Virus record (IMG/VR): IMGVR_UViG_3300009428_000004
Location: 1-64,000 of that record
Direction: 5' to 3' (one strand)
Length of the DNA: 64,000 bases
DNA from: a virus
Shown in pieces: positions 1,433 through 41,018 of this stretch. The notes below the pieces were generated by a model. It had not been told where the DNA came from, searched no databases, and saw nothing but the letters and a program-made list of their open reading frames with translations. How positions within the stretch are numbered: the first letter of the stretch is position 1; the number at the start of each line of letters is the position of its first letter. A program made the position numbers and the translations under genes.

Positions 1433-2116
1433 TTAAAGCTCTGGAAAAAGACACTTCTGAATGAATAAGTCTACGTCATCAGGATCGATGCCTAGGCTCT
1501 TCATTACGTTAGGTGTGTGAGGATTCTGTTTCTGATAATGTGCATAGTTATTCTGTGTGGCTATGCCCAATTCTTGTGAAGAGTATCCGTTATAGTTACC
1601 GATTTCTTTGAGATAATATGATAGTGTTTCCATTGCCGTGCCAGTTATCTGTGCAATCTCTATAGGATCTTTAACCATACCTGCGGCAATCATATGATCA
1701 GTGAATATAGCTTTAGCCCATTCAGGTAACTCTCGCTCTCTCTTCCATGATAGTGCAGATGCGACCGTACCAAACCAATCAATCATTGGGTGTTCTATAT
1801 TAGTCGTAGCAGAGAAATCGTGGAATGCGCCAGTCATCTTATTAGCACCAGCTATTACATCAAATCCATAGATAGGTGCATCACTATCGGTGTGAGGAAA
1901 CACACAGACGTGCATCATCCACATCTTCTTCTCTTCACGCATATCGACAACATCAACGTGTGCCCTACGATAGTCTTGGGATGTCCAAACTCTATTTACC
2001 CAACCAGGTTTGTTGAACTGCTCCATACCAGGTTCTTGTACTTCGATTCCACTGCCAGAAAACTCCTCTATGAAGTGATCTTGTAGATCGATGAGACTTT
2101 TCCATACTATACTCAT
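1433..2116 (-). CDS. ferredoxin-dependent bilin reductase (PcyX/PebS-like)
   Basis: A 227-residue protein of the ferredoxin-dependent bilin reductase family, which reduces biliverdin using reduced ferredoxin. The central signature is visible: a cytosolic-type HVCVFPHTD strand, then PIYGFDVIAG, matching the family pattern of FP...P(I/L)(L/Y)G.D(L/V). Length fits PcyA/PebS/PcyX enzymes. Start 2116 (MSIVWK) is preferred because GGGAG lies 7 bases upstream and its ATG overlaps the stop of the preceding small gene. Heme oxygenase lies just upstream in the same run, so both probably act in sequence. Phage PcyX enzymes are known from marine viral sequences next to heme oxygenase; whether this one makes phycoerythrobilin cannot be read from sequence. 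Confidence 0.85.
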   Translation of the reverse strand: MSIVWKSLIDLQDHFIEEFSGSGIEVQEPGMEQFNKPGWVNRVWTSQDYRRAHVDVVDMREEKKMWMMHVCVFPHTDSDAPIYGFDVIAGANKMTGAFHDFSATTNIEHPMIDWFGTVASALSWKRERELPEWAKAIFTDHMIAAGMVKDPIEIAQITGTAMETLSYYLKEIGNYNGYSSQELGIATQNNYAHYQKQNPHTPNVMKSLGIDPDDVDLFIQKCLFPEL

Positions 2117-2265
2117 AACCATGCTCCCACAAACATAGTAATCACTATTACTGCATATAGACCTAAGATCATCAGGTTCATTCGTTTTTGGCGATGTTCT
2201 CGCCTATCGAATGCTTCCATGACTTTCTCGTATGTTGCGTCAAGTTCGCTCTTACTTTCTTTCAT
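2113..2265 (-). CDS. 50-residue single-span membrane protein
   Basis: A small gene preceded by GAGGAG. It encodes a charged N-terminal helix followed by one hydrophobic segment (about residues 31-50) and ends in GAWL. Its start overlaps the heme oxygenase stop and its stop overlaps the bilin reductase start, so all three are translationally coupled. Function unknown; it may anchor or accompany the bilin enzymes. Confidence 0.65.
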   Translation of the reverse strand: MKESKSELDATYEKVMEAFDRREHRQKRMNLMILGLYAVIVITMFVGAWL

Positions 2266-2798
2266 TGTAATAACTCCTCAAATAGCCTTATTGCAAATTT
2301 AAAACATCTATTAGCCTCTGGTGCCATACTGTCACTCAACAGATTACGAACATTCGTTTTTAGTTCTTCTACTTTCTCAAACTGGTACATCTTGCCACTA
2401 CCAGGAATACGTTTAGCGATCATAGCTCCGCCGTACATATCTCCAAAGTGTCGGACATACATATGTGCCACTAGACCATCTTTATCATTCTCATATAAGT
2501 TCTCGCAGTACTCGGTATAATCCTTAGTACATTGTGCGATTGTAATATCCATTCTATCAAATCCATATAAGTCTTCGAGTTCACGAATATCTTCTCCTAT
2601 CAATTGAGACCTGGCAATATCGGTCAGACCAAGTTCCGTTAGAGGTAACTTGTACTCTAGTGAAACGTAGTTATAAAATTGATTTACGAGGTATCGATGA
2701 TAGAGGGCTGGGTCTATCTTGCCACTCATTAGGATTGATGCAAACTTCTTGCGTTCAGCATCTCTGTGGTTATCCCACGTTAGTTCTTTTAAATTCAA
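2262..2798 (-). CDS. heme oxygenase
   Basis: A 178-residue heme oxygenase of the HO-1/HmuO type, which opens heme to biliverdin, CO and iron. The proximal heme ligand is His11 in the N-terminal HRDAE segment. The distal helix shows RHFGDMYGGAM, matching the family GDLSGGQ region. It starts at a TTG codon with GGAG seven bases upstream. The product would feed the adjacent bilin reductase, and the ALAS gene upstream could raise heme precursor supply. The protein is slightly shorter than bacterial and cyanobacterial enzymes (about 200-240 residues), as is usual for phage copies. Confidence 0.9.
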   Translation of the reverse strand: MNLKELTWDNHRDAERKKFASILMSGKIDPALYHRYLVNQFYNYVSLEYKLPLTELGLTDIARSQLIGEDIRELEDLYGFDRMDITIAQCTKDYTEYCENLYENDKDGLVAHMYVRHFGDMYGGAMIAKRIPGSGKMYQFEKVEELKTNVRNLLSDSMAPEANRCFKFAIRLFEELLQ

Positions 2799-2833
2799 TT
2801 AACATCTCCAATTCAAACGCTCAATGCGTTACA

Positions 2834-2983
2834 TTAAATATCTTTCTCTTCCATAAGACGCTGGAGTTTTTGTATCTCTAGCATCTGCAATTCAATAAGG
2901 GTAGCCTGTTCTCCTATTTGTGTAGCTTGAAGTTCAACTTCGGTAGGCTTCGGCTTTGTAGGAAATTCGATCACGTTAGACAT
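2834..2983 (-). CDS. 49-residue helical protein
   Basis: A small gene with a strong AGGAGG site 6 bases before ATG. The product begins MSNVIEFPTKPKP and continues as a Gln/Glu/Leu-rich helix likely to form a coiled coil. A similar MSNVIDF start is found in the gene at 27159-27524. Function unknown. Confidence 0.65.
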   Translation of the reverse strand: MSNVIEFPTKPKPTEVELQATQIGEQATLIELQMLEIQKLQRLMEEKDI

Positions 2984-2997
2984 ATTGCCTCCTAAGA

Positions 2998-3702
2998 TTA
3001 CCTTGTTTTTCGTTGTGCCTTAATCCATGCTTTAGCACTGGAATTATCAGGCTTTGCTTTCACGAATTTAGCGACTTCTTTATAAGCTCGTAGAGTCTCT
3101 ACGCCGTAGTCTTTACCTTCAGAGTTATCTACTACAGTAAACTTTTGCTTGCCGAAAAACGTCTGGAATGCACCAATGTTTTTCTGAACTGTTGTCCAAT
3201 ACTTCTCTACTTCATCTTCAGGTAGTGTACGTTTACGTGCTTTATTACGTGACTGCGCTGTAGCTAGATCGGTGTTAACAAAGATCATACTAGTGTCATA
3301 CCCAATAGATTTTAACGATTTTGCCTGTTTGATCAACTTCTGAGTATCTTTACCAGTACCATCGATGACTAACCCTAAACGACCTTTAATATACATTGCT
3401 TGCTTAACGCCTGTTAAGACTTTTGCTTTACCACGTAACTCTTGACCTTGCACAGAGAAGATATTCTCTGGGTCCATCTCCATACCTGCTTTAGCCATTG
3501 CTTTCTCGAATGCGTCATCAGAGTTGACAACTTTGAATCCAAGCGATGTGAGTCCAGTCTTACCAACAATGAATGATTTACCAGAGCCAGGTCCACCGGC
3601 TAAGAACACTGCTTTAAAAATAGCTGGATCGTTGACACCTTCTTCTAGTTCCCTCTTAAGGGTAACAAACTCTTCTTTAAGATAATTTTCAAACGTTAAC
3701 AC
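2998..3702 (-). CDS. zeta-toxin-like P-loop kinase, late, possible internal protein
   Basis: A 234-residue P-loop protein with Walker A GGPGSGKS near residues 36-43, a conserved SDD further on and a basic C-terminus. The overall plan fits zeta-toxin/AAA-like small kinases common in T4-like phages. It starts at GTG with AAGGA upstream and lies behind a TATAAATA late promoter at 3736-3743. The N-terminus MLTFENYLKEEF resembles the T4 capsid-targeting sequence with a gp21-type LxE site. This suggests it is packaged in the head and injected; that is inference. It splits the early bilin genes, so its timing differs from theirs. Confidence 0.7.
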   Translation of the reverse strand: MLTFENYLKEEFVTLKRELEEGVNDPAIFKAVFLAGGPGSGKSFIVGKTGLTSLGFKVVNSDDAFEKAMAKAGMEMDPENIFSVQGQELRGKAKVLTGVKQAMYIKGRLGLVIDGTGKDTQKLIKQAKSLKSIGYDTSMIFVNTDLATAQSRNKARKRTLPEDEVEKYWTTVQKNIGAFQTFFGKQKFTVVDNSEGKDYGVETLRAYKEVAKFVKAKPDNSSAKAWIKAQRKTR

Positions 3703-3735
3703 GATTGGGTTCCTTATTATTTGATTTACTAGTCT

Positions 3736-3743
3736 TATTTATA
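3736..3743 (-). promoter_or_regulatory. T4-type late promoter TATAAATA
   Basis: An exact TATAAATA on the minus strand overlaps the 3' end of the ALAS gene and lies 34 bases before the kinase start. T4 late promoters, read by the gp55/gp33 RNA polymerase, have this box. Confidence 0.65.
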
Positions 3744-4947
3744 AAAAGTTTGACTTTCTAAATCCTATTATTTCTTTGAGTTTTTCAGCTAAATCGAGCA
3801 TCATAGCATCTGTGTGTAGTGGAGTAGGCGCAAATCTAAGTCTTTCAGTTCCCATAGATACTGTCGGATAATTTATAGGTTGTACATATATATCGTAACG
3901 TGTAATAAGTTCATCGCTGACAGACTTACATCTTACAGCATCTCCTATCATAACAGGCACGATATGAGTTTCATTCTCTAGCACATCTATATCTCTTTCC
4001 TTGAGTACGTCTTTTAGTTTCTTTGCACGTTCTTGGTGAATAGCTCTCAGCTCCACACCATTACTGCTCTTAAGATACTTGATAGCACTCAATGCACCTG
4101 CACACATCACTGGGCTTAGACTTGTTGTAAATATGAATCCACTCGCAATACTGCGTATAGCATCGATAGCAATGGCATCGCCAGATATGTATCCTCCTTG
4201 ACAACCAAAAGCCTTACCTAGCGTTCCATTGATGAAGTCAACTCTATGTTGCACTCCCAATAACTCAGTGAATCCTGCGCCAGTATTTCCATATAATCCA
4301 ACAGCATGTACTTCATCTATATACGTCATAGCTTTATATTCTTCAGCTATATCCAGTATCTCTTCGATTAAGCTTACATATCCATCCATACTATACACGC
4401 TTTCAAACACAATGCAAGGAGTACCCTTTATATTAGATAGGACTTCACGCAACTGTTCCATGTTATTGTGTTCAAATACGTGCTTGGGTGCACCACTGTG
4501 TTTCATGCCTTGAATAAGACTTGCGTGGTTCTTACTGTCGCTCACAAATTCTATATCTGGAATAATCTTACTGAGAGCAATTAACGTCCACTCGTTTGCC
4601 ACATAAGCACTAGTATACAACAGTGCGCTTTCTTTATTGTGCAATTCGGCAAGTTCACGCTCTAATGCAACATGATAGTGGCTAGTACCTGCAATATTTC
4701 TAGTACCGCCACTACCTGCACCAGTCTGATCTAAAGCCGTGTGCATTGCATCTAATACTACTTTGTGTTGTCCCATGCCCAGATAGTCATTACTACACCA
4801 ATTAACTATGTTCTTAATGTTATATGGACCGTAATATAATGCTTGAGGGAATTCACCTCTCTCACGTATTATGTCATTAAAGACTCTGTAATTACCGCTA
4901 TTTTTTAAGCCCGTTATCACGTCCTGGAACTTGCTTGTATCTATCAT
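3739..4947 (-). CDS. hemA: 5-aminolevulinate synthase (ALAS, Shemin pathway)
   Basis: A 402-residue PLP enzyme of the alpha-oxoamine synthase family, joining glycine and succinyl-CoA into 5-aminolevulinate, the first step of heme synthesis in Alphaproteobacteria. Visible features are the NDYLGMGQH start, GTRNIAGTS, the YIDEVHAVGLYG strand and PLP lysine Lys245 in TLGKAFGCQGGY. A C-terminal RFAPTPLHTD segment is typical of ALAS rather than KBL or BioF. Full length, no lesions. It follows the SleB-like hydrolase on one transcript. With heme oxygenase and bilin reductase downstream it forms a precursor-to-bilin module. Phage ALAS genes have been described in aquatic phage sequences. Confidence 0.88.
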   Translation of the reverse strand: MIDTSKFQDVITGLKNSGNYRVFNDIIRERGEFPQALYYGPYNIKNIVNWCSNDYLGMGQHKVVLDAMHTALDQTGAGSGGTRNIAGTSHYHVALERELAELHNKESALLYTSAYVANEWTLIALSKIIPDIEFVSDSKNHASLIQGMKHSGAPKHVFEHNNMEQLREVLSNIKGTPCIVFESVYSMDGYVSLIEEILDIAEEYKAMTYIDEVHAVGLYGNTGAGFTELLGVQHRVDFINGTLGKAFGCQGGYISGDAIAIDAIRSIASGFIFTTSLSPVMCAGALSAIKYLKSSNGVELRAIHQERAKKLKDVLKERDIDVLENETHIVPVMIGDAVRCKSVSDELITRYDIYVQPINYPTVSMGTERLRFAPTPLHTDAMMLDLAEKLKEIIGFRKSNFL

Positions 4948-4967: not shown

Positions 4968-5561
4968 TTATTTGTAGAATATATGACTATCTATTCGTAC
5001 TGTACGCTCGTATGCCTTAGACCAGTATGGATTACTGTAGTGAGCATGGTACATAATAGCACCACCTGTCATATCAGGTATCTTATTATATTGCGACATG
5101 ACATATTCTGCCACTAACATGGCAGTATGAATACGTTCTTTATCTTTTGGGGTGTCTGATTTACCGTCACAATACCAAGAAAATTGGCACTTGTTTATGA
5201 TTGGACTACCCTTTGCGTTCACGTGTGCTTGATACACAACGTCACATATGGTCTCAGGATACCTATCATTCTCTACCCTATTCATAGTAACAAAGCCAAC
5301 TGCTTGTTGACCTAAGTCTCCATCACTTCTAGCCTCGTGATATATATTTAACGCTAGACAGCGATGTTGAGTTGCGTACTCATACTCTCTTTCTTCACGG
5401 AGTATTTGTGCTTGGACAATAGAGACTTCTTGAGCTTTCTTTATTGTCGCAACTTCATTAGCTTGCACTTGAGCAACATGAACACCCATGTACGACAAAC
5501 CAAGTAAACATGCTACTGACATAGCACCCGATAACCAATATCCAGTTGTTTTAATATTCAT
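4968..5561 (-). CDS. SleB-type cell-wall hydrolase (endolysin candidate)
   Basis: A 197-residue protein with an N-terminal membrane anchor or signal-arrest segment (residues about 10-30), a short helical linker and a C-terminal Hydrolase_2/SleB domain. The domain shows CLALNIYHEARSDG with the likely catalytic Glu, GFVTMNRV, and CQFSWYCDGK. It would cleave peptidoglycan from the periplasm. An early-type promoter (5605-5632) precedes it, and a late box lies further up. A second lysin of GH19 type is encoded at 55419-56309, so one may act at lysis and the other at entry or in the head. Confidence 0.8.
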   Translation of the reverse strand: MNIKTTGYWLSGAMSVACLLGLSYMGVHVAQVQANEVATIKKAQEVSIVQAQILREEREYEYATQHRCLALNIYHEARSDGDLGQQAVGFVTMNRVENDRYPETICDVVYQAHVNAKGSPIINKCQFSWYCDGKSDTPKDKERIHTAMLVAEYVMSQYNKIPDMTGGAIMYHAHYSNPYWSKAYERTVRIDSHIFYK

Positions 5562-5654: not shown

Positions 5655-5662
5655 TATTTATA
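5655..5662 (-). promoter_or_regulatory. T4-type late promoter TATAAATA
   Basis: Exact TATAAATA on the minus strand in the gap between two genes, upstream of the early promoter for the SleB-like hydrolase. The hydrolase and ALAS genes could therefore be expressed early and late. Confidence 0.45.
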
Positions 5663-6276: not shown

Positions 6277-8313
6277 TTACTTGCTAGTGGCTCTAAAGAT
6301 TCCGTCCCAATCGTCTGGAAGGTTCAGTGTTTCCATGTAGGCACAGCGTTCTATCCATATGTCGTAGTACCCGTCCATATGACCTTCGAAGCTTCCTTTG
6401 AGTTCTTTGCATAGCTCAATAGCTTCATTGAACTGTCTAGAACTGTATTTATGATGCATGTACCCGTGTTTAGCGATCTCAACTCCGTAATGCTCTTCGG
6501 AATCTAGATCAAGTACTGTGTATATGTCTAGTCCTACTGTCTTACCTTTAACTGCCAAATCATCTAATTTTAAGTAGAAAAAGTCTTCACGGGTTGCTTG
6601 ATATGTTGATGGACCTACGATCAGAACAACACCATATGCTTTGCACGAACTTTCTAATCTGGCTGCCGTACTAACTGCGTCTCCGAGAATGTCGTAGGAG
6701 TGTCGTGCAGTAGAGCCCATTTCGCCAATATAACCAAGACCAGTATTAATACCGGCACCCATGCCGACTGGTGGGCGACCAGTTTTTGTAAGTTCTTCAT
6801 TGAATTCCTCCACTGCTCTTAGCATGTTGAGACATGTCTGTATGCCAGTCTTAGGGTGATCTGGATCGTCTATGGGAGCATTGTGTATGTGCATAGACGC
6901 ATCACCGATATACTTGATAACCATTCCATTTACATCTAGAATTGGTTTAGATATTGCATCCATGTATCCGTTCATCACTTGAGTAAGACCCTTTACATCG
7001 TCACCAAACGACTCACCAAGAGGCGTGAAGCCACGAAGATCAGAGAACACAATTGACACTTCTTTCTTAACTCCATCCTTGACTAAGGCAGGGTTTTCTT
7101 GAAGCATCTTGACGACCGCAGGAGATGCATATCCAGCAAACTGCTTCTTGATAGCCATCTTTTGAAAGTATTCTTGTCCATACTTGACGGCATAGACATG
7201 AGTGAAAATCATGATGCCCATCAATCCTTGAACTGTAGTGATCAGTAGTGATAGATCAGTATTGAAGAAATATACAGGAAGATAGATCAGTGCGCCTGTC
7301 ATGCCTATAGACAATGCCCAACCAAATCTAACATAGCTCAGACCAATAATAGAAAGACCTAGCACAATGATTCCGATAAGTTTAATGAATTCTTCTAATG
7401 GGTGAGTAACAATATTATACTGATTCTTTACGGATGTGAATGCCCTAGCAGTAAGATCGTGCCCATAGACAGCACCAGAAGCCGTAGGTACGGGGTTTGA
7501 TATGCCGTCAGCAGTAACCCCAACAAAAACTGTTGCTCCATTCAAATCTGGCATCGTATCCGTTAGATCATATCGAGTAAAATCATAGTTTGGGTTCATC
7601 CATATGCGGCTTAAGGAATCCGTATTGATGATTGGAAACCCTTTTACTCTAACTGCTGTCACACCAAATTCGCTGTTTTTTACTTGAAAGGTATTTGATC
7701 CAGTGTAAGCCTTGAATATCTCTAAAACGATTGAAGGATATAAGGATTCCTGTACTCCAGCAAGCATGGGTAATCGTCTTACTACTCCATCAATTTCTGG
7801 TAGAGTATTTGCAATTCCAATGCCTGTTGCTACGTTCTCGTACTTCTCTAAGTTTGCGGCTATACCAGGATAATTGTAAATATAATCCAAAGCATCACCG
7901 CCAACCTGTACAATAGCAGTACTGTATGCTGATCTGTTTTGAGCCTTATTACTAGGGAAATGAGATAAGATGACGCCTTGCCCGAGCATATCCGTGAAAT
8001 ATTCGTCTTGACCTGTTCGATCTTCTTCTGGGAATGATAGATTAAATACGATAATGCCTGCATTCGCTTGACGCAATCTGAGGATTAAATCCCCGTAGAT
8101 GTCTCTTGGTAGTGGGTATTGCCCATGAGTTTCTAAAGTCTTTTCTGATATGTCTACTAATACCACATCATCGATGAATTGCTTTTCTTCGACTATGAGT
8201 TGATCTGCGATCTTTAGATCAATGCTTTGTAGTAGAGTTGGATTAGATAGTGTTACCCACGCTAGAATTAGCGTAGTGATAATAGCAAATAATGGCGAAA
8301 GGATGATTTTCAT
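6277..8313 (-). CDS. CHASE2-domain adenylate cyclase (membrane-bound)
   Basis: A 678-residue sensor cyclase: N-terminal membrane segment, extracytoplasmic CHASE2 domain (about 30-320), three membrane segments (about 325-400) and a class III cyclase domain (about 415-610). Metal-binding residues are Asp425 (VFSDLRGFT) and Asp471 (YIGDA). Lys467 and Asp541 (YDILGD) are the pair that selects ATP, so adenylate cyclase is predicted. The usual catalytic Asn after GDAV is Ser548 while Arg552 is kept, an odd change that could lower activity. A short C-terminal tail follows. It ends the curlin/FecR/CsgG operon; a 6-bp hairpin (6257-6273) lies downstream. CHASE2 cyclases often neighbour FecR-domain genes in bacteria, suggesting capture as a unit. 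Confidence 0.85.
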   Translation of the reverse strand: MKIILSPLFAIITTLILAWVTLSNPTLLQSIDLKIADQLIVEEKQFIDDVVLVDISEKTLETHGQYPLPRDIYGDLILRLRQANAGIIVFNLSFPEEDRTGQDEYFTDMLGQGVILSHFPSNKAQNRSAYSTAIVQVGGDALDYIYNYPGIAANLEKYENVATGIGIANTLPEIDGVVRRLPMLAGVQESLYPSIVLEIFKAYTGSNTFQVKNSEFGVTAVRVKGFPIINTDSLSRIWMNPNYDFTRYDLTDTMPDLNGATVFVGVTADGISNPVPTASGAVYGHDLTARAFTSVKNQYNIVTHPLEEFIKLIGIIVLGLSIIGLSYVRFGWALSIGMTGALIYLPVYFFNTDLSLLITTVQGLMGIMIFTHVYAVKYGQEYFQKMAIKKQFAGYASPAVVKMLQENPALVKDGVKKEVSIVFSDLRGFTPLGESFGDDVKGLTQVMNGYMDAISKPILDVNGMVIKYIGDASMHIHNAPIDDPDHPKTGIQTCLNMLRAVEEFNEELTKTGRPPVGMGAGINTGLGYIGEMGSTARHSYDILGDAVSTAARLESSCKAYGVVLIVGPSTYQATREDFFYLKLDDLAVKGKTVGLDIYTVLDLDSEEHYGVEIAKHGYMHHKYSSRQFNEAIELCKELKGSFEGHMDGYYDIWIERCAYMETLNLPDDWDGIFRATSK

Positions 8314-8531
8314 GTCTCTGTATCTACTTTCATTGGCTCTGATCTATCGCATTCGAATTGCACTAGCCAGTAGCAAGCCTCTTGTTTTGTTATAAAGCGA
8401 GGACTTACAGTAACACCATCATCGTTAACCCAGTGCCACTCTCCCCATGTTTTATCTATTCGCACAACATATACTCTTCTATGTGTATCTTTTGTACATC
8501 TATTTAGTAACGTCTTGCTATAGGTTTCCAA
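8310..8531 (-). CDS. 73-residue protein before the cyclase
   Basis: A small protein with a basic N-terminus and a TWGEWHWVNDDG strand. Its TGA overlaps the cyclase ATG, so the two are coupled. The only plausible start is TTG at 8531, with no clear ribosome site, and it overlaps the 55-residue gene upstream by 28 bases. The start is uncertain. No family recognised. Confidence 0.5.
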   Translation of the reverse strand: METYSKTLLNRCTKDTHRRVYVVRIDKTWGEWHWVNDDGVTVSPRFITKQEACYWLVQFECDRSEPMKVDTET

Positions 8532-8671
8532 TTGGGATTTCGTTCGCCTACCAGACTAAGTTCGGGTCTAGTACGCTTGTCACCGTTCTTATCTGCATAG
8601 ACTTCTGTCTTACCAGTTTTCACCCATTCTGATGTCCAGTAAACAACAGGAGATTTATCGACTCTAGTCAT
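8504..8671 (-). CDS. 55-residue protein after curlin-like gene
   Basis: A short frame starting MTRVDKSPVVYW whose ATG overlaps the stop of the curlin-like gene (AATGACTAG). It is basic, with no signal peptide or known domain. Translation would rely on coupling, since no good ribosome site is visible. Confidence 0.45.
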   Translation of the reverse strand: MTRVDKSPVVYWTSEWVKTGKTEVYADKNGDKRTRPELSLVGERNPNWKPIARRY

Positions 8672-9650
8672 TTTGATATACTATTAGGTTGCAACCGCCT
8701 GAAGCATTACAAGTTCCACTAACTCCAGCTCCATCACTCATGGTATGTGGCAATGTGTAATTCTTATCGGTTGCTCCTCTTTGCTCTAACTTGAAATCCC
8801 ATGGCTGTGAGCCATCGAGTTCGACTCTAGCAGAATGAGCGCCTGATCCGTTTTGAAATATATCTGCCTTGTGATTATCGCCAGTAATCTCTAAGTCTAT
8901 AAATTTATCACCAAGACCGTGTTGCGCTATATCGACATCATTACTATCTCCCGTTACGGTAAGTACAGCGGCTTTGTTGCCGATGCCTTTTTGTAGTATG
9001 TCTATGTCATTACTGTTACCAATTATAGTGGCATCGATATATCCGTGTGATCCTGAATTTAGATCCTGCTCAGTATCGACATTATTAAGATTGCCGGTAA
9101 TTATTAAGTCTAGGTAACTTATACCACCAGCTTGTGTTATGAATATATCATTGAAGCTACCTGTTATGCTTGCTTCAACTGTGTCACCTTGTCCTGCGGC
9201 GGCTAATGCGAGTTTTGCATTTATTTTAGTCTGCTGTGCGGTAGTTGGCGCAGTTGATCCGTAAACTGGAGTTGCGTCGGCTGCAGGAGCTGAAAAGGAG
9301 TACCAGGAACCTGCCGCAGGGGTAAAACTATTGCCATCAGCGTCACACATAGTTAAAAATAGATTGTCGCCACTGCCACTGACACCGCATACAAAAGCAG
9401 TATCTCCTACCGAACCAGATCCAAAGCCGCTATAAGATGTCATAGTAGCAATCCATCCAACAATACTATTGCCTAAGGCTACTAGATCAGCAAAGGTTGT
9501 TGTATCATTGCCATTATAGACGTAGATATAAGTAGAGCCTTGTGAACTTACGTTCATCACTGGAGTACCCGTATCAGCATAAGCGTCTGAGGATATGAAC
9601 CACGCTAGAATTATAATACTACTGGCTTTGCGTAATATTGATGATAACAT
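8664..9650 (-). CDS. curlin-repeat (CsgA/CsgB-like) exported protein
   Basis: A 328-residue exported protein. After a signal peptide ending SSDAYA, an N-terminal domain of about 130 residues carries no repeat. From about residue 155 to 285 there are six or so curlin-type strands with the pattern G(D/N)SNDxDIxQxGxGxK, close to the S-x5-Q-x-G-x2-N-x5-Q repeat of CsgA/CsgB. It would be secreted through CsgG and assemble into, or nucleate, amyloid. Start 9650 has GGAGG five bases upstream. The C-terminus is IVYQND, a curlin-like half strand. Four cysteines occur in pairs, unlike CsgA. Confidence 0.75.
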   Translation of the reverse strand: MLSSILRKASSIIILAWFISSDAYADTGTPVMNVSSQGSTYIYVYNGNDTTTFADLVALGNSIVGWIATMTSYSGFGSGSVGDTAFVCGVSGSGDNLFLTMCDADGNSFTPAAGSWYSFSAPAADATPVYGSTAPTTAQQTKINAKLALAAAGQGDTVEASITGSFNDIFITQAGGISYLDLIITGNLNNVDTEQDLNSGSHGYIDATIIGNSNDIDILQKGIGNKAAVLTVTGDSNDVDIAQHGLGDKFIDLEITGDNHKADIFQNGSGAHSARVELDGSQPWDFKLEQRGATDKNYTLPHTMSDGAGVSGTCNASGGCNLIVYQND

Positions 9651-10722
9651 CTCCACCTCCGTTTAGCTGAATGAGTGCAGGCACATTGTCTTTGTATAGG
9701 TTTACGTCACCGTCTGTTATACGCTCGGTAGTTACGTCTGAAATGTGTACAGAGCTTTCACTATAAATGCCTATCTTTTCCTCATCGTAGAATGCTTGAA
9801 CTGTGGTCCTATATGCATTTATTGTAGGAAGAACTGGGTCAATAGCCAATTGTTCGTCTTGTAGCATAGCAGTAGCGTCTAGCACGTTGAATAGAAAATC
9901 TATGTCTAGCCTGTTTACATCAAGCTCTTTGAATTCTAGTTTATCTTCTTCTAATTCGTCTGAATTTAGTTCAGCATATTCTAGCAAATCACTATCTAAG
10001 TATTCGGCAACTTCTGCTTGAACTATGTATCCTATACCTTTCAATTCTGGCGGTGGTGTGATGATTAACATGTTACCAATATTGGCTTCAGTGATGTCTA
10101 GTATCTTAGGCTTAGTCGGAGTAGCCATTTTGTTCGATACTAATGTTGCTTGATATGCCTGATTTAATATGACCTGTCCCACTTCGGTAGAGACCATAAT
10201 CTCACCTGTCCAGCAATCGCCCACGGGAGGACAACTCGGTAACAGAATAACAATACTTCTGCCCAGTTCATCTACGGTCATAGTGAAGTCAGTACCACGA
10301 ACAGATATTGTCGCAGTGGGCGTTTTTAGGGATACATTTTCTCTTGAGTTTCTTGCGATTGCACCAGATGAGTACTTAACAGTGCCGAGTGCGATGTTCA
10401 TTGCTAGTTTGCCTGTACCAGTACTTGGATCATAGATAAAGTCATCGATGATTAGTACGGATTGTTCGGTGACACTTACTCTAGTATCGTCTATGAATGT
10501 GAGTCCCAGTTTGGTTTTTGCTGTAACGATCTCATCGTCCATAGATAAACCAGTTCCCTTCTCCGTAGAAATGCTATCACCATCTCTCGTTATTTGTGCA
10601 GGGTTGCCCTTTTGCGAAGTAATACTACCAATCGTTTCCGTAGTATTACCCAACGCAAAGGAACTAGCAAAACATAGTATAAATGTAAATAGTAGATTAA
10701 TTCTGTATGATGTTAATCGCAT
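9619..10722 (-). CDS. FecR-domain exported protein
   Basis: A 367-residue exported protein with a signal peptide (MRLTSYRINLLF... ending FALG), then a FecR domain: IGSITSQKGNPAQITRDG, a GLSMDDEIVTAK strand, LTFIDDTRVSV and LKTPTATISVRGTDF. The C-terminal half is acidic and helical, and the last residues VIINITQSQ resemble a curlin strand. FecR domains act in periplasmic signal relay or polymer binding, and FecR genes commonly sit next to CHASE2 cyclases in bacteria. It overlaps both curlin-like neighbours, so the three are translated together. Confidence 0.75.
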   Translation of the reverse strand: MRLTSYRINLLFTFILCFASSFALGNTTETIGSITSQKGNPAQITRDGDSISTEKGTGLSMDDEIVTAKTKLGLTFIDDTRVSVTEQSVLIIDDFIYDPSTGTGKLAMNIALGTVKYSSGAIARNSRENVSLKTPTATISVRGTDFTMTVDELGRSIVILLPSCPPVGDCWTGEIMVSTEVGQVILNQAYQATLVSNKMATPTKPKILDITEANIGNMLIITPPPELKGIGYIVQAEVAEYLDSDLLEYAELNSDELEEDKLEFKELDVNRLDIDFLFNVLDATAMLQDEQLAIDPVLPTINAYRTTVQAFYDEEKIGIYSESSVHISDVTTERITDGDVNLYKDNVPALIQLNGGGDVIINITQSQ

Positions 10723-11389
10723 TACTATCACCATCAACTGTCATAGTAACTACAGGAATATCTGTAGTAGATTGTGTGAGATTTATCTCATTGAAGTTAC
10801 TAGACACATTACCGCCAACTGTTATAGTATTCACTGCATCGGCAGCATCCAATTCTAGATTGACTGTGTTATAATCACCAGTGGTCGCTAGAGTTGTAGT
10901 CGTATCAGTAACGCTGACCTCTGTTGTACAGGTTGCTATTGTGCCTGTGGTAGAAGCAGTCGATACTCCGTCCGTAACTGATCCTACAGATGCAACTCCA
11001 GAGTTGTCGTTGGTACCGCAGACTGTTACCAGATTGCTGTCGCCTGTCACCGTTGAAGTGAAGGTCGTTCCGGTTGTGGCAATACCCATCACAGTTTCGT
11101 TCGAGTCACCAGTATTCAATATATTGATGGTTGTTGAACTAGATCCTGCACTCGTGGATATATCCGTTTTGTTGGAATTACCTTGTTGACTGATATCTAT
11201 GTCCTGACTATCGCCATTTAAGGTTGTGGCAGTTGTTGAATTACCCACGGTGTTGCCATTACCGGTTTGAGTGATATCGATTGTACTGCTAGAACCAGCC
11301 TGCACAATGTACACGTCACTAGCGTGTGTGGTTGTAGCAAAAGCCGCAAATGCGATCAGTGCTATAGTGTAAAGCTTTAAATTGCTCAT
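10697..11389 (-). CDS. curlin-repeat (CsgA/CsgB-like) exported protein
   Basis: A 230-residue exported protein with a signal peptide ending THAS and a mature part very rich in Thr, Ser, Asn and Gly. Repeats such as STIDITQTGNGNTVGN and QDIDISQQGNSNK match the curlin strand pattern with regular Gln and Asn. Start 11389 has GGAG upstream; a longer frame adds 12 non-signal residues. The C-terminus ends SNAINIIQN. It is the first curlin-like gene after csgG and is a likely CsgG export substrate. Major versus nucleator subunit roles cannot be told apart. Confidence 0.75.
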   Translation of the reverse strand: MSNLKLYTIALIAFAAFATTTHASDVYIVQAGSSSTIDITQTGNGNTVGNSTTATTLNGDSQDIDISQQGNSNKTDISTSAGSSSTTINILNTGDSNETVMGIATTGTTFTSTVTGDSNLVTVCGTNDNSGVASVGSVTDGVSTASTTGTIATCTTEVSVTDTTTTLATTGDYNTVNLELDAADAVNTITVGGNVSSNFNEINLTQSTTDIPVVTMTVDGDSNAINIIQN

Positions 11390-11487
11390 ATGTATTACTC
11401 CGTTTTGTTCGATCTCTCCCGACAACGAACATATTTTTTTAGTTTTACTTACTCCTCATATCAAAGGTGTTATAATTTTATAAAGGT

Positions 11488-12276
11488 CTACTTAACGTAT
11501 TGCCAGTATTCCTTCCTTTCTCCTTCTTTAATCAACTCAACGACGGCTTGCTCTATAGCAACTCTTACGGCATAATTGACGGGTTCATTAATAGAATGAC
11601 CCATTTCTGCCTCTAGCGAGTTTGTGCCCATATCGAAAAATCTAAAGAATGTCATGCTTGTTCCAGTGCTTATAATAGTTTTTGTAGTTGAAACACTTAA
11701 CAACACTTCTCCGCTTTGTACGCTTACCATTCTAATAGTTACAGTCACTATGTCCTGTCTGTATTGGGTACTGGGACCGACACCTAAGTATCGAGCACCT
11801 GCACCACCGGTTAGCACATTGGAATCATATCCAATTATGCCTCCCTCTACTAAGACCCCTGCAAATAGCATCGGTCTCAATTCTCTTGTATCCTTCACAG
11901 CCGCTCGGCTCTGACGAATTATTTGCCTTTCTTTAGTTAGATTTTCTAACCCTATTCTCTCTACTACTTGAAACCAAGTGCCTCCTCCAACTTCTTGAAG
12001 CGCCTTGATCAGCCAAACTTCAGAGCCCTGCGTGACAGCGGTACTAATGTTAGCCATTCTTTCACTAGGCTTTCTCTGTCCTGTCTTATCAGTGAACCCA
12101 TATACTGCTACAACTGCTTTACCTGTAGAAGGAGCTGGCATAGTAAGAAATTCCGTATTTTCATTCTTAACTACTTTTGCTGTTTCTGGCTCGGGCTTAA
12201 ATCCAAAGTCTTCGGTCAGTGTAGCACATCCACTTGTAGTCAGTACTAATGCTAATAGCGCAAGAAATTGTTTCAT
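11488..12276 (-). CDS. csgG: CsgG-family outer-membrane curli secretion pore
   Basis: A 262-residue lipoprotein with lipobox TSGC at about residue 17. The body fits CsgG: VVAVYGFTDKTGQRKPS, a GGTWFQVVERIGLENLTKERQIIRQSR stretch, VEGGIIGYDSN, and RYLGVGPSTQYRQD before the transmembrane hairpin region. CsgG forms a nonameric outer-membrane channel that exports curli subunits. It directly follows csgF (shared base at 12276). Length matches bacterial CsgG. CsgG/CsgF homologues have been reported in some marine phages; here the channel is accompanied by its likely substrates. Confidence 0.9.
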   Translation of the reverse strand: MKQFLALLALVLTTSGCATLTEDFGFKPEPETAKVVKNENTEFLTMPAPSTGKAVVAVYGFTDKTGQRKPSERMANISTAVTQGSEVWLIKALQEVGGGTWFQVVERIGLENLTKERQIIRQSRAAVKDTRELRPMLFAGVLVEGGIIGYDSNVLTGGAGARYLGVGPSTQYRQDIVTVTIRMVSVQSGEVLLSVSTTKTIISTGTSMTFFRFFDMGTNSLEAEMGHSINEPVNYAVRVAIEQAVVELIKEGERKEYWQYVK

Positions 12277-12749
12277 TAGAACGAAAAATCTCCTACAGGA
12301 ACGTCAAATTCGGAAACGATATCACCATTGGAATCTGTGACAGTTACGTATATTCTACCGCCCTCTTGTTTCCATGCAATTATATCTCCAAATGGAGTAG
12401 TTGCTTCGTACCATTCTCCTTCTATTGTTTCTCCACCACCTTCACCGAATAGCGAGTCCGCTATATTCTTAGAGAGGGTTGCATAAATTCTAGACTCTAA
12501 ATTGTTCTGGAACTTATACGCATTGGTAGATTTCAAATCACGTTCTGCTTCGTCTTCCCGTGCCTTTTTCTCGTCCTTAATCTCTTTTCTTCTATTAGCC
12601 TCTAACTGCTCTATTGTCAGTATGTGCGAACTGTAACCGTTGCCATTAAAAGCTGGAGATACAAATACATGCGTCAGCTCACTTGCTGTCGAATGAGATG
12701 TCATCACCGCTGTTAGTACTATCACGGTTGTTATCAAATATTTTTTCAT
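12276..12749 (-). CDS. csgF: CsgF-like curli assembly factor
   Basis: A 157-residue exported protein with a signal peptide ending STAS. The mature N-terminus ELTHVFVSPAFNGNGY matches the CsgF segment (FxxPxFGGN) that inserts into the CsgG channel. The rest is a charged helix (about 50-80) and a beta-rich C-terminal domain. In bacteria CsgF narrows the CsgG channel exit and couples secretion to nucleation. Its start lies inside the end of the upstream membrane-protein gene (71-base overlap). Confidence 0.85.
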   Translation of the reverse strand: MKKYLITTVIVLTAVMTSHSTASELTHVFVSPAFNGNGYSSHILTIEQLEANRRKEIKDEKKAREDEAERDLKSTNAYKFQNNLESRIYATLSKNIADSLFGEGGGETIEGEWYEATTPFGDIIAWKQEGGRIYVTVTDSNGDIVSEFDVPVGDFSF

Positions 12750-13002
12750 AATCGTTTTTATCCTGTTGTTGTAAGATCATGTCCAGTTTAGTTTTGAGCC
12801 TAATCAAGTCATTATCTAACATTCTTACTCTATCGATCAGTGCTATCAGTGTCATATGTGACTCGCCAATAACCGGATCGACCTCTTCCGTTACCCAGTT
12901 CCAGATATAGTATATGAAGTACCCTAGTCCTACTGCGGCTATAATTGGAAAGCCGTATTGCGAGATCATCTCAGCAATATTAAGTGTTTCTGCCTCAGGC
13001 AT
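12679..13002 (-). CDS. small membrane protein with coiled coil (holin-like)
   Basis: A 107-residue protein with one membrane segment (about 18-36, GFPIIAAVGLGYFIYYI) followed by a helical IDRVRMLDNDLIRLKTKLD stretch. It is related in plan to the 92-residue protein at 13379-13657 (shared GFPI-AA segment and following helix). Similar small proteins in marine phages are sometimes called holin candidates. It overlaps csgF by 71 bases in another frame, an unusually long overlap. Confidence 0.6.
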   Translation of the reverse strand: MPEAETLNIAEMISQYGFPIIAAVGLGYFIYYIWNWVTEEVDPVIGESHMTLIALIDRVRMLDNDLIRLKTKLDMILQQQDKNDYEKIFDNNRDSTNSGDDISFDSK

Positions 13003-13189
13003 CTTCTTTATCTGATCCTATTTTCATTAACCATCCATTTTCGTTTACAACGAAAGTATCTCCTGGCTTATATAAGTGGTTGTTTTTAGCTGTTCCATCT
13101 TTTTGAACACCCATGACTTCTCCTTCCCACTCTCCCTCAACTTTAAAATGTGCGCCAACTTGGTTAATATTATAATCAAGCCAAAGCAT
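12995..13189 (-). CDS. 64-residue SH3-like small protein
   Basis: Start 13189 (MLWLDYNINQ) follows GAGGATACAG; the longer frame to 13252 lies in another gene. The product ends in PGDTFVVNENGWLMK, matching the GDTFVVGPSGYF segment of the next gene upstream, so the two are paralogues. They may be a small beta-barrel family. Function unknown. Confidence 0.6.
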   Translation of the reverse strand: MLWLDYNINQVGAHFKVEGEWEGEVMGVQKDGTAKNNHLYKPGDTFVVNENGWLMKIGSDKEDA

Positions 13190-13379
13190 TATCTGTATCC
13201 TCAAATGCGTCCATAATATTGCCTCTATGTTCGAAGTAGCCACTAGGACCAACTACAAACGTATCCCCTATCTTCAATAGACCTTCATCGATCATATGAA
13301 ACTTATCGTCTGGATTGTCTTTTTTGACAACCCTAAACCCGTTATCGAACTTCATTAAGTCGTAGTCTTTATAGTACAT
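13176..13379 (-). CDS. 67-residue SH3-like small protein
   Basis: A small protein starting MYYKDYDLMKFDNGF with a central GDTFVVGPSGYF segment shared with the following gene. It sits between two membrane-protein genes in the run leading into csgF. Start and stop overlap both neighbours. Confidence 0.6.
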   Translation of the reverse strand: MYYKDYDLMKFDNGFRVVKKDNPDDKFHMIDEGLLKIGDTFVVGPSGYFEHRGNIMDAFEDTDNALA

Positions 13380-13657
13380 TAATCTTTCCTCGCATCTTTC
13401 TGACCATCGGCTCTCGCCACTCTATCCAGGTCTGGGCTTACATTGTGAGCGTGACAAATCATGAGGTCTATTCTCATGACTTCATTGTTCATCGTCTTAA
13501 TTCTATTATCTAAGGCTTGTGCAAAGCCTCTTTGTGTTTTGATGTCCGACAATACTCCGTCGAGGATAAACCTTAGCGTAAGAAACACGAAAAATCCACC
13601 TGACAGGGCTGCCGCAATTGGAAACCCAACATCTGCTATCAAACTTAGCACGTCCAT
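13379..13657 (-). CDS. small membrane protein with helix tail (holin-like)
   Basis: A 92-residue protein with one or two hydrophobic segments (GFPIAAALSGGFFVFLTL and the following turn) and a helical LDNRIKTMNNEVMRIDLM tail. AGGAG precedes the ATG, and a TATAAATA late promoter lies 23 bases upstream, so it opens the curli cassette transcript. Paralogue of the protein at 12679-13002. Confidence 0.65.
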   Translation of the reverse strand: MDVLSLIADVGFPIAAALSGGFFVFLTLRFILDGVLSDIKTQRGFAQALDNRIKTMNNEVMRIDLMICHAHNVSPDLDRVARADGQKDARKD

Positions 13658-13679
13658 AAATTCACTCCTTTACTATAGT

Positions 13680-13687
13680 TATTTATA
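13680..13687 (-). promoter_or_regulatory. T4-type late promoter TATAAATA
   Basis: Exact TATAAATA directly abutting the T-tract of the preceding terminator. The predicted transcription start near 13674 leaves the AGGAG of the 92-residue gene a few bases into the message. It probably drives the csgF/csgG/curlin/FecR/cyclase run. Confidence 0.7.
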
Positions 13688-40220: not shown

Positions 40221-40228
40221 TATAAATA
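40221..40228 (+). promoter_or_regulatory. T4-type late promoter TATAAATA (plus strand)
   Basis: Exact late box 23 bases before the lipase ATG; the predicted start near 40234 leaves AGGAG just inside the message. The only plus-strand late box seen. Confidence 0.75.
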
Positions 40229-40250: not shown

Positions 40251-41018
40251 ATGACCCAAATCACTTCACAACCAATACTAGTTCGTTCACTGTTATTCGC
40301 AAGGCTCTCACAGATAGCATACTTAGATGAACCAGAAGCAAGCAAGGCAGCCAGAGCATTAGGATTTACCACAACAGAGTTTTATGAAAGAGATGGAGCT
40401 CAGGCATACAGATTTCAAAATAAGTCTGATCTAGTTATCGCATGTAGAGGCACACAGCCTACGGAATTTGGCGATATCAAAGCTGATCTAAAAGCATTCC
40501 CAGTATTAGCTGAAACAATCTCTAGAGTTCACAGCGGATTCAAGACTGAAGTAGACGATCTATGGCCGATGATTATTGAAGACATTGCAAGAACAGTAAA
40601 CGCTAAGAAAATGCTATGGTTCTGCGGTCATTCTCTGGGTGCGGCAATGGCTACTATCATGGCGTCTAGATGTACTCACGATGATACACTAACTAGTCCT
40701 TCAATGGTATTTACGTTCGGTTCACCTAAAGTTGGTTGGCCAACATACTGTAAGTCTTTAGACGTTGTGCATCATAGATGGAAGAATAACAACGACATCG
40801 TAACTACTGTTCCTTTACGTGTAATGGGATATAAGCATCACGGTGAAGAGCATTACATCAATGCGTATGGCTTAGTTAGGAATCCAACTGGATGGCAAAG
40901 AGTTAAAGATAAGTTTCGTGGTATTTGGATGGGATTAAAACAGGGCAAGATAGACTCATTCTCCGATCATAGTATCGATGAATACATCAAACACATTGAT
41001 AACGCTATTCGTGGATAA
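40251..41018 (+). CDS. class 3 lipase
   Basis: A 255-residue alpha/beta hydrolase of the lipase class 3 family. Nucleophile Ser128 lies in GHSLG, Asp182 in NNDIVTTVP and His240 in SDHSIDEY, a full triad. An oxyanion-side segment VIACRGTQPTEFGD is also typical. No signal peptide, so it would act in the cytoplasm on the inner membrane or be released at lysis. It is the only gene group on the plus strand, under a late promoter with AGGAG. A role in lysis or membrane turnover is inferred. Confidence 0.85.
   Translation: MTQITSQPILVRSLLFARLSQIAYLDEPEASKAARALGFTTTEFYERDGAQAYRFQNKSDLVIACRGTQPTEFGDIKADLKAFPVLAETISRVHSGFKTEVDDLWPMIIEDIARTVNAKKMLWFCGHSLGAAMATIMASRCTHDDTLTSPSMVFTFGSPKVGWPTYCKSLDVVHHRWKNNNDIVTTVPLRVMGYKHHGEEHYINAYGLVRNPTGWQRVKDKFRGIWMGLKQGKIDSFSDHSIDEYIKHIDNAIRG

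Follow-up and report, generated by a model that had tools for sequence, protein, structure and literature searches.

Genes for the curli secretion proteins CsgF and CsgG were first reported in phages by Zaragoza-Solas et al. in 2020 (PMC7029224), and since then curli genes in abundant ocean phages have been an unexplained oddity, with proposals ranging from 'sibling capture' to pinholins. Wittmers et al. (2022; PMC9599517) described the order histidine kinase (HK), CsgF, CsgG, CsgA/B, FecR, CsgA/B and adenylate cyclase (AC) in podo- and myo-type pelagiphages and stated that FecR, HK and AC do not occur in bacterial type VIII secretion system (T8SS) operons, while Buchholz et al. (2022; PMC9004378) argued from missing curlins for a pinholin-like role of CsgGF in the Methylophilales phage Melnitz. 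No paper on the cassette newer than these was found in our literature search. Here we analyzed a cassette of this kind in the IMG/VR virus record IMGVR_UViG_3300009428_000004 (91,017 bases, possibly a fragment), positions 1 to 64,000 of which form the window, i.e. the whole stretch of 64,000 nucleotides considered here. The cassette lies at 13687-6277 on the minus strand and reads TATAAATA motif, TMcc-A, two tiny open reading frames (ORFs), TMcc-B, csgF, csgG, curlin 1, FecR, curlin 2, two tiny ORFs and CHASE2 cyclase (Table 1). In our best-supported reading, for which we see about an even chance, these genes would make a late adhesive fibre of the curli type that is anchored by the FecR protein and read out by the cyclase.

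An earlier reading made from the sequence alone (the sequence-only reading) had named the genes, their head-to-tail order and a late-promoter motif, and the ORF list and a Pfam search bore this out, with every named gene present and intact. Neighbouring genes overlap or almost do so; the sole larger gap, of 98 bp, separates csgG from curlin 1. The cassette as it had been delimited is real, but its start at csgF had to be moved: two genes of the family phrog_18771 belong to the unit, which therefore begins at 13657. Scanning IMG/VR with the window CsgG, we found relatives in at least 598 stretches. Among the best 80 of these, the order csgF-csgG-curlin-FecR is kept wherever the contig extends far enough, and a second curlin and the cyclase usually come after FecR; in variants the cyclase is inverted, a further cyclase lies upstream or an additional curlin precedes FecR. 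As the order recurs in diverse viral contigs at roughly 45-90% identity, it is far beyond chance, and the synteny is widespread with intact genes rather than confined to one genome with frameshifted ones. The novelty that had been hoped for did not hold up: the synteny of the six families has been in print since 2022 (PMC9599517) and can be seen in the annotation of the Melnitz record, and we rejected the cassette as a new find. It is a real, well-conserved and already described phage module, of which the window holds a further member. What the sequence-only reading had missed is a curlin-related C-terminus on the FecR protein, a head on curlin 2 and the tie between the membrane protein pair and the cassette.

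The AlphaFold2 (AF2) model of the FecR protein starts with a signal-peptide-like helix (residues 3-23), directly followed by the FecR domain (residues 32-205, pLDDT about 94), a disordered linker (96-143 residues across 43 members) and a separate C-terminal β-domain (residues 306-367, pLDDT about 85), in which the last-strand Gln is invariant in 43 aligned FecR proteins. In profile-profile comparison this C-terminal domain aligns with the curlins C-terminus to C-terminus (score 31.1, E 4.4e-5), while 99 of 100 column-shuffled controls stayed at or below 11.9; the one exception, a 4-column numerical artefact of hhalign, was set aside. A curlin hidden Markov model (HMM) gave the domain a mean of 5.3 bits compared to -0.06 ± 0.43 for residue shuffles, and the curlin-like terminal Q-strand motif occurs in 56 of 60 FecR proteins, but only in 5/67 CsgG, 6/66 CsgF and 1/63 cyclase sequences. 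The same coupling was seen in a collection of bacterial and archaeal genomes, the scan of which gave 80 loci: each of the six full-length FecR proteins encoded next to curlins ends in a curlin-type tail (E 5e-11 or better; a seventh, L111, is cut off by the contig end), and no such tail was found in the FecR proteins of these loci that have no curlin neighbours. Many curlin-free bacterial FecR genes adjoin CHASE2 cyclases, and the earlier statement that the two often adjoin in bacteria is thus correct. Because of this adjacency in curli-free bacteria, FecR and CHASE2 look like a pre-existing bacterial pair, of which the FecR partner in the curli cassette seems to have, or to have acquired, an end of the curlin type. 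For CsgB, the C-terminal repeat has been reported to act in the interaction with CsgF (PMC10192328), which makes nucleator or anchor a natural guess for the FecR protein, a step that we infer.

These features bear on the published proposal (PMC9599517) that FecR is an iron-dependent regulator which, together with the histidine kinase and the adenylate cyclase as further regulators, switches on the phage curli. The FecR domain does match the FecR/PupR-type structures 4m0h and 6ovk in its fold, and the cyclase looks active. However, the model of the FecR protein lacks the cytoplasmic N-terminal sigma-binding segment and TM (transmembrane) helix of the FecR anti-sigma type, the genes upstream of csgF encode membrane coiled coils of 92 and 107 aa without kinase domains, and transcription looks driven by a phage late promoter, so we regard this proposal as quite improbable. 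Given the signal peptide, the absence of a cytoplasmic anti-sigma segment and the fibre-like tail, the name 'ferric citrate regulator' does not suit the protein; it is probably a fibre component, anchor or nucleator. Sequence searches of the FecR family or its parts against the PDB returned nothing usable. A fold match to the 'cell surface anchoring domain' of 5ix9, suggestive of retention, came with no statement of the part of FecR covered and was not used. Two groups of FecR loci without curli genes were noted in addition. On a Rickettsiales contig (L099, 5210-9160) from a metagenome-assembled genome (MAG), a FecR-domain protein of 1317 aa has as neighbours a CHASE2 cyclase and two genes that score as membrane-pair members, possibly a variant whose giant FecR protein takes the place of the curlins; in single-cell genomes of Pelagibacteraceae (SAR11; L100-L138), short secreted FecR-domain proteins occur, some of them near a gene scored as cyclase-like.

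Both curlin genes of the window contain PF07012 repeats above the cut-off (E 1.8e-5 and 1.6e-7), and together with the Pfam matches of CsgF and CsgG this supports the earlier claim of an export pore with amyloid-type substrates of its own. The NCBIfam CsgG model scores below its cut-off on the window protein. The two curlin positions differ in their architecture. Defining a head as at least 110 residues ahead of the first strand pair, we found none in 70 first-position curlins, in which the repeats begin right after the signal peptide, and a head in 18 of 42 second-position curlins. The heads are of several kinds, mutually unrelated by inspection: PA14 domains above the Pfam cut-off in L003 (HTVC008M) and L043 (E 2.7e-6, 3.5e-10), an F5/8 type C domain above the cut-off in L088 (E 1.1e-9) and a CBM_4_9 domain below the cut-off in L040. 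In its repeat half, curlin 2 retains two Cys that are invariant, as well as the terminal Gln strand. Carbohydrate binding is common among PA14, F5/8 type C and CBM_4_9 domains, and thus an adhesive display role of the curlin 2 heads is likely. Taken together, the curlin tail on FecR and the presence of swappable PA14 and F5/8 type C heads in just one of the curlins point to a surface adhesive fibre rather than to a lysis pore or an iron switch.

The two genes ahead of csgF belong to one family (phrog_18771) with a single TM helix followed by a conserved coiled coil. As our searches revealed neither a kinase nor an ATPase domain in them, we rejected the idea of a kinase domain being encoded upstream of csgF; the pair most likely represents the genes to which the literature wrongly gives the name 'histidine kinase'. 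Among the phages of the annotated collection, the pair occurs in Melnitz and HTVC008M only. Of 80 loci found by scanning IMG/VR for the pair, 73 also contain genes of the curli cassette, including all 16 with full 10-kb flanks, and in the remaining seven the contig is short or the pair is near its end. In many loci the pair lies on the opposite strand, so its link to the curli genes is not mere co-transcription. The converse is weaker, since some curli contigs, i.e. G001 (204 kb) and several shorter ones, are without the pair. The pair appears to be a strict, phage-specific partner of the curli genes.

The motif TATAAATA occurs 12 times in the window, compared to 5.3 expected occurrences, a count reached in 3 of 100 shuffles. 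Its copy at the head of the cassette overlaps the T-tract of a terminator-like hairpin (13710-13691). Among related loci, the motif is found at most 120 nt upstream of the first gene of the membrane pair in 45 of 111 cases, compared to 6 for the antisense orientation, and never upstream of csgG (0/127) or FecR (0/122). These numbers and positions make a late promoter of the T4 type credible for the cassette, with the promoter belonging to the membrane pair upstream of csgF, and they agree with the earlier claim that the genes are made late. The sole plus-strand copy in the window (40221-40228) was noted 22 nt ahead of 40251-41018, which is lipase-like by eye and the one plus-strand gene to reach 200 aa in the 20-64 kb region; its position ahead of a lone plus-strand gene supports the motif as a working late promoter.

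A late promoter at the membrane pair would also suit a lysis or exit device, in which CsgG/CsgF forms a pinholin- or secretin-like pore, as proposed for CsgGF in PMC9004378, the membrane pair is holin-like and a nearby hydrolase acts as endolysin. A cell wall hydrolase gene (PF07486) is indeed located 0.7 kb downstream of the cyclase gene, and the membrane pair shows weak YvrJ-like similarity. Yet such a device leaves the conserved curlins, the swappable heads, the FecR tail and the cyclase unexplained, and the membrane pair is strictly tied to the curli genes though every phage needs lysis. Moreover, the proposal assumed that Melnitz has no curlins, whereas its GenBank record annotates two curlin-repeat genes, FecR and the cyclase. 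We consider a lysis device unlikely, and outer-membrane opening at lysis, one of the roles named in the sequence-only reading, is not favoured here. The added anatomy also makes the regulator proposal less likely than before.

The cyclase retains both metal-binding Asp residues as well as the substrate Lys and the Arg in 104 of 104 viral sequences. The transition-state Asn is replaced by Ser in 60 of these, including the window (AVSTAARLE) and Melnitz, and this Ser is always paired with Asp at the base-selecting position. Such uniformity argues for a maintained, perhaps retuned enzyme; a decayed cyclase was rejected on the four residues kept throughout. The cAMP-making sensor of the sequence-only reading is therefore catalytically plausible as far as these four residues go, and departs from the canonical set at the transition-state position. 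A second CHASE2 cyclase-like gene was observed upstream of csgF in L052, L053, L065, L069, L084 and other viral loci.

The cassette is not restricted to viruses. Two MAGs of freshwater Caulobacteraceae contain csgF-csgG-curlin-curlin-FecR-cyclase (L097, 7091-13045; L098, 7107-13045), in L098 amid ordinary chromosomal genes; these were the only cassettes in 299 sampled genomes of the family. Their DNA is 87% identical over 5,975 bp, while the flanks differ, and the genes that flank the cassette in one MAG sit 346 bp apart on another contig of the other genome (an empty site, L273). Differing flanks and empty site indicate that, in bacteria, the cassette behaves like a discrete unit able to move. 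There is no obvious transposase inside it, and reading the junction sequences, without a systematic search, revealed no obvious repeat at the insertion ends. A binning error is unlikely for the flanks, since flanks and cassette are on the same contig; the species assignment is less secure. In CsgG and cyclase trees the two MAG sequences branch next to the viral groups rather than within them, with support that is moderate or partly unresolved, which fits a bacterial source without the trees proving the direction. The presence of FecR and cyclase in two bacterial cassettes qualifies the statement on bacterial T8SS operons in PMC9599517; two ordinary alphaproteobacterial curli operons that we inspected have neither.

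We propose the following arrangement for an anchored adhesive fibre. CsgG and CsgF would form an outer-membrane pore late in infection, through which CsgG would export the curlins by type VIII secretion, curlin 1 as the fibre body and curlin 2 as a subunit or tip displaying an exchangeable head, often of a carbohydrate-binding type. The FecR protein would most likely serve as a periplasmic or pore-side anchor or nucleator, with its FecR domain inside, its linker of ~100 residues passing through CsgG and its curlin-like end joining the fibre, much like the C-terminal repeat of CsgB in its interaction with CsgF. On the cyclase, CHASE2 would be the partner of the FecR domain, and the status of the fibre could in this way be reported as cAMP, which would alter the host at a late stage of infection; the two small tandem membrane proteins would be phage-specific partners. 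Such a fibre might bind neighbours, particles or glycans, and the likely benefit would be adhesion of infected cells to neighbouring cells or to particles, or a masked surface.

Several observations weigh against this arrangement. In cultures infected with Melnitz, clumping was not seen under the conditions used (PMC9004378). The contact between FecR and CHASE2 is read from gene pairing, and the window cyclase has the Ser in place of the transition-state Asn. The β-solenoid fold expected of the curlins is partly supported, by a regular strand ladder in a curlin 2 model of modest confidence (pLDDT 65); a Foldseek search of curlin 2 against the PDB gave no significant fold match, so the solenoid rests on the sequence repeats and the strand ladder. 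The CsgE gate (PF10627) had no match in the 91-kb record. CsgE is, however, absent from the curli systems of all Alphaproteobacteria treated in PMC3521004, and its absence is thus not disqualifying. A missing gate would also suit CsgG as a pore by which nutrients or cofactors are taken up while infection proceeds, as suggested in PMC7029224 and PMC9599517, but this leaves the conserved substrates, the heads and the FecR tail without a role and seems highly improbable to us.

The FecR protein might also be exported whole instead of being kept in the periplasm. It would then form part of the fibre as a subunit headed by the FecR domain, with the cyclase sensing periplasmic load only. A curlin-like C-terminus suits any T8SS substrate, and the curlin 2 heads show that head-tail fusions occur. 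FecR-CHASE2 pairs in curli-free bacteria, on the other hand, favour a periplasmic FecR partner, and the FecR domain is constant in kind while the curlin heads are variable; whole export therefore appears rather unlikely. A fuller version of the anchored fibre, possible but distinctly tentative, would combine a dual anchor-sensor role of FecR (the tail in, or nucleating, the fibre, the FecR domain gating CHASE2, and assembly or tension converted to cAMP) with a modular adhesin carrying swappable lectin-type heads and with movement of the whole unit between bacterial chromosomes and phages.

Table 1. Features of the curli cassette, listed in the direction of transcription (window positions)
Feature	Position	Strand	Evidence or remark
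T4-type late promoter motif TATAAATA	13680..13687	-	22 nt ahead of first gene
TMcc-A, 92 aa, single TM + coiled coil	13379..13657	-	phrog_18771; without kinase domain
ORF, 67 aa, GDTFVV motif	13176..13379	-	ORF list
Small ORF, GDTFVV motif, start codon uncertain	12995..13252	-	apparent paralogue of 67-aa ORF (by eye)
TMcc-B, 107 aa, single TM + coiled coil	12679..13002	-	phrog_18771; distant paralogue of TMcc-A
csgF, 157 aa	12276..12749	-	PF10614 E 1.9e-13
csgG, outer-membrane curli export lipoprotein, 262 aa	11488..12276	-	PF03783 E 3.7e-54; lipobox-like TSGC
Curlin 1, 230 aa, signal peptide, no head	10697..11389	-	PF07012; repeats from mature N-terminus
Secreted FecR-domain protein, 367 aa	9619..10722	-	PF04773 E 1.5e-7; structure model
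FecR β-domain, residues 30-205	10108..10635	-	pLDDT about 94
FecR-protein linker, acidic, Leu-rich, disordered, residues 206-305	9808..10107	-	model
FecR-protein curlin-related C-terminal domain, residues 306-367	9622..9807	-	invariant Gln at residue 365
Curlin 2, 328 aa, with N-terminal head	8664..9650	-	PF07012
Curlin 2 head, about residues 32-150	9201..9557	-	no Pfam match; common to L004, L005, L015, L016
Curlin 2 repeat ladder and conserved Cys-Cys C-terminal cap	8667..9200	-	strand every 11-12 residues
ORF, 55 aa	8504..8671	-	no family match
ORF, 73 aa	8310..8531	-	no family match
CHASE2 class III adenylate/guanylate cyclase, 678 aa	6277..8313	-	Pfam; catalytic residues
CHASE2 extracytoplasmic sensor domain, residues 16-319	7357..8268	-	PF05226 E 9.1e-33
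Cyclase catalytic domain, residues 416-592	6538..7068	-	Guanylate_cyc PF00211 E 1e-15; residue set D-K-D-D-S-R

The GDTFVV ORF pair (12995-13379) looks as if a unit of membrane protein and GDTFVV protein had been duplicated. The cell wall hydrolase mentioned above (4968-5561) has a signal peptide and is a candidate endolysin; its gene has a TATAAATA motif of its own upstream (5655-5662). Further along, a tetrapyrrole set is encoded on one strand (1433-4947), comprising 5-aminolevulinate synthase (TIGR01821, 556.8 bits with a cut-off of 338.6), heme oxygenase and a PcyX-like bilin reductase; a zeta-toxin-like kinase is encoded in between. Among phages, the closest bilin reductase is 48.5% identical and comes from Pelagibacter phage Mosig. 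Shemin-pathway genes of this type have reportedly been described in phages already (PMC11480375).

Compared to known systems, the window shares the CsgG/CsgF pore and curlin-repeat substrates with bacterial curli operons (Escherichia csgBAC/csgDEFG; alphaproteobacterial csgF/csgG/csgA), to which it adds FecR, the CHASE2 cyclase and the membrane pair, with no CsgE found. The Burkholderia BiofilmReg operon (PMC5192318) likewise places a secreted FecR-domain protein beside a CHASE2 membrane enzyme, there a LysM-FecR protein with a CHASE2 histidine kinase. The pelagiphage T8SS module (PMC9599517) has the same CsgF-CsgG-CsgA/B-FecR-CsgA/B-AC order, also without CsgE, but one or two upstream genes are called histidine kinase where the window has membrane coiled coils, FecR is called an iron regulator, and PA14, discoidin and carbohydrate-binding heads are unmentioned in its text. 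Two published names (FecR 'regulator' and 'histidine kinase') are corrected by our analysis, as is the published absence of FecR and cyclase from bacterial T8SS operons. The function of the cassette is a testable question, as it is present in two cultured phages, Methylophilales phage Melnitz and Pelagibacter phage HTVC008M, which are also the nearest cultured relatives by cassette genes. Both carry the same genes in the same order, with a cyclase 47.5% identical to that of the window over its full length in Melnitz and a CsgG 48% identical in HTVC008M. HTVC008M has a PA14 head on curlin 2, to which the head in the window is unrelated, and a cyclase with the canonical Asn, whereas curlin 2 is headless in Melnitz and headed in the window.

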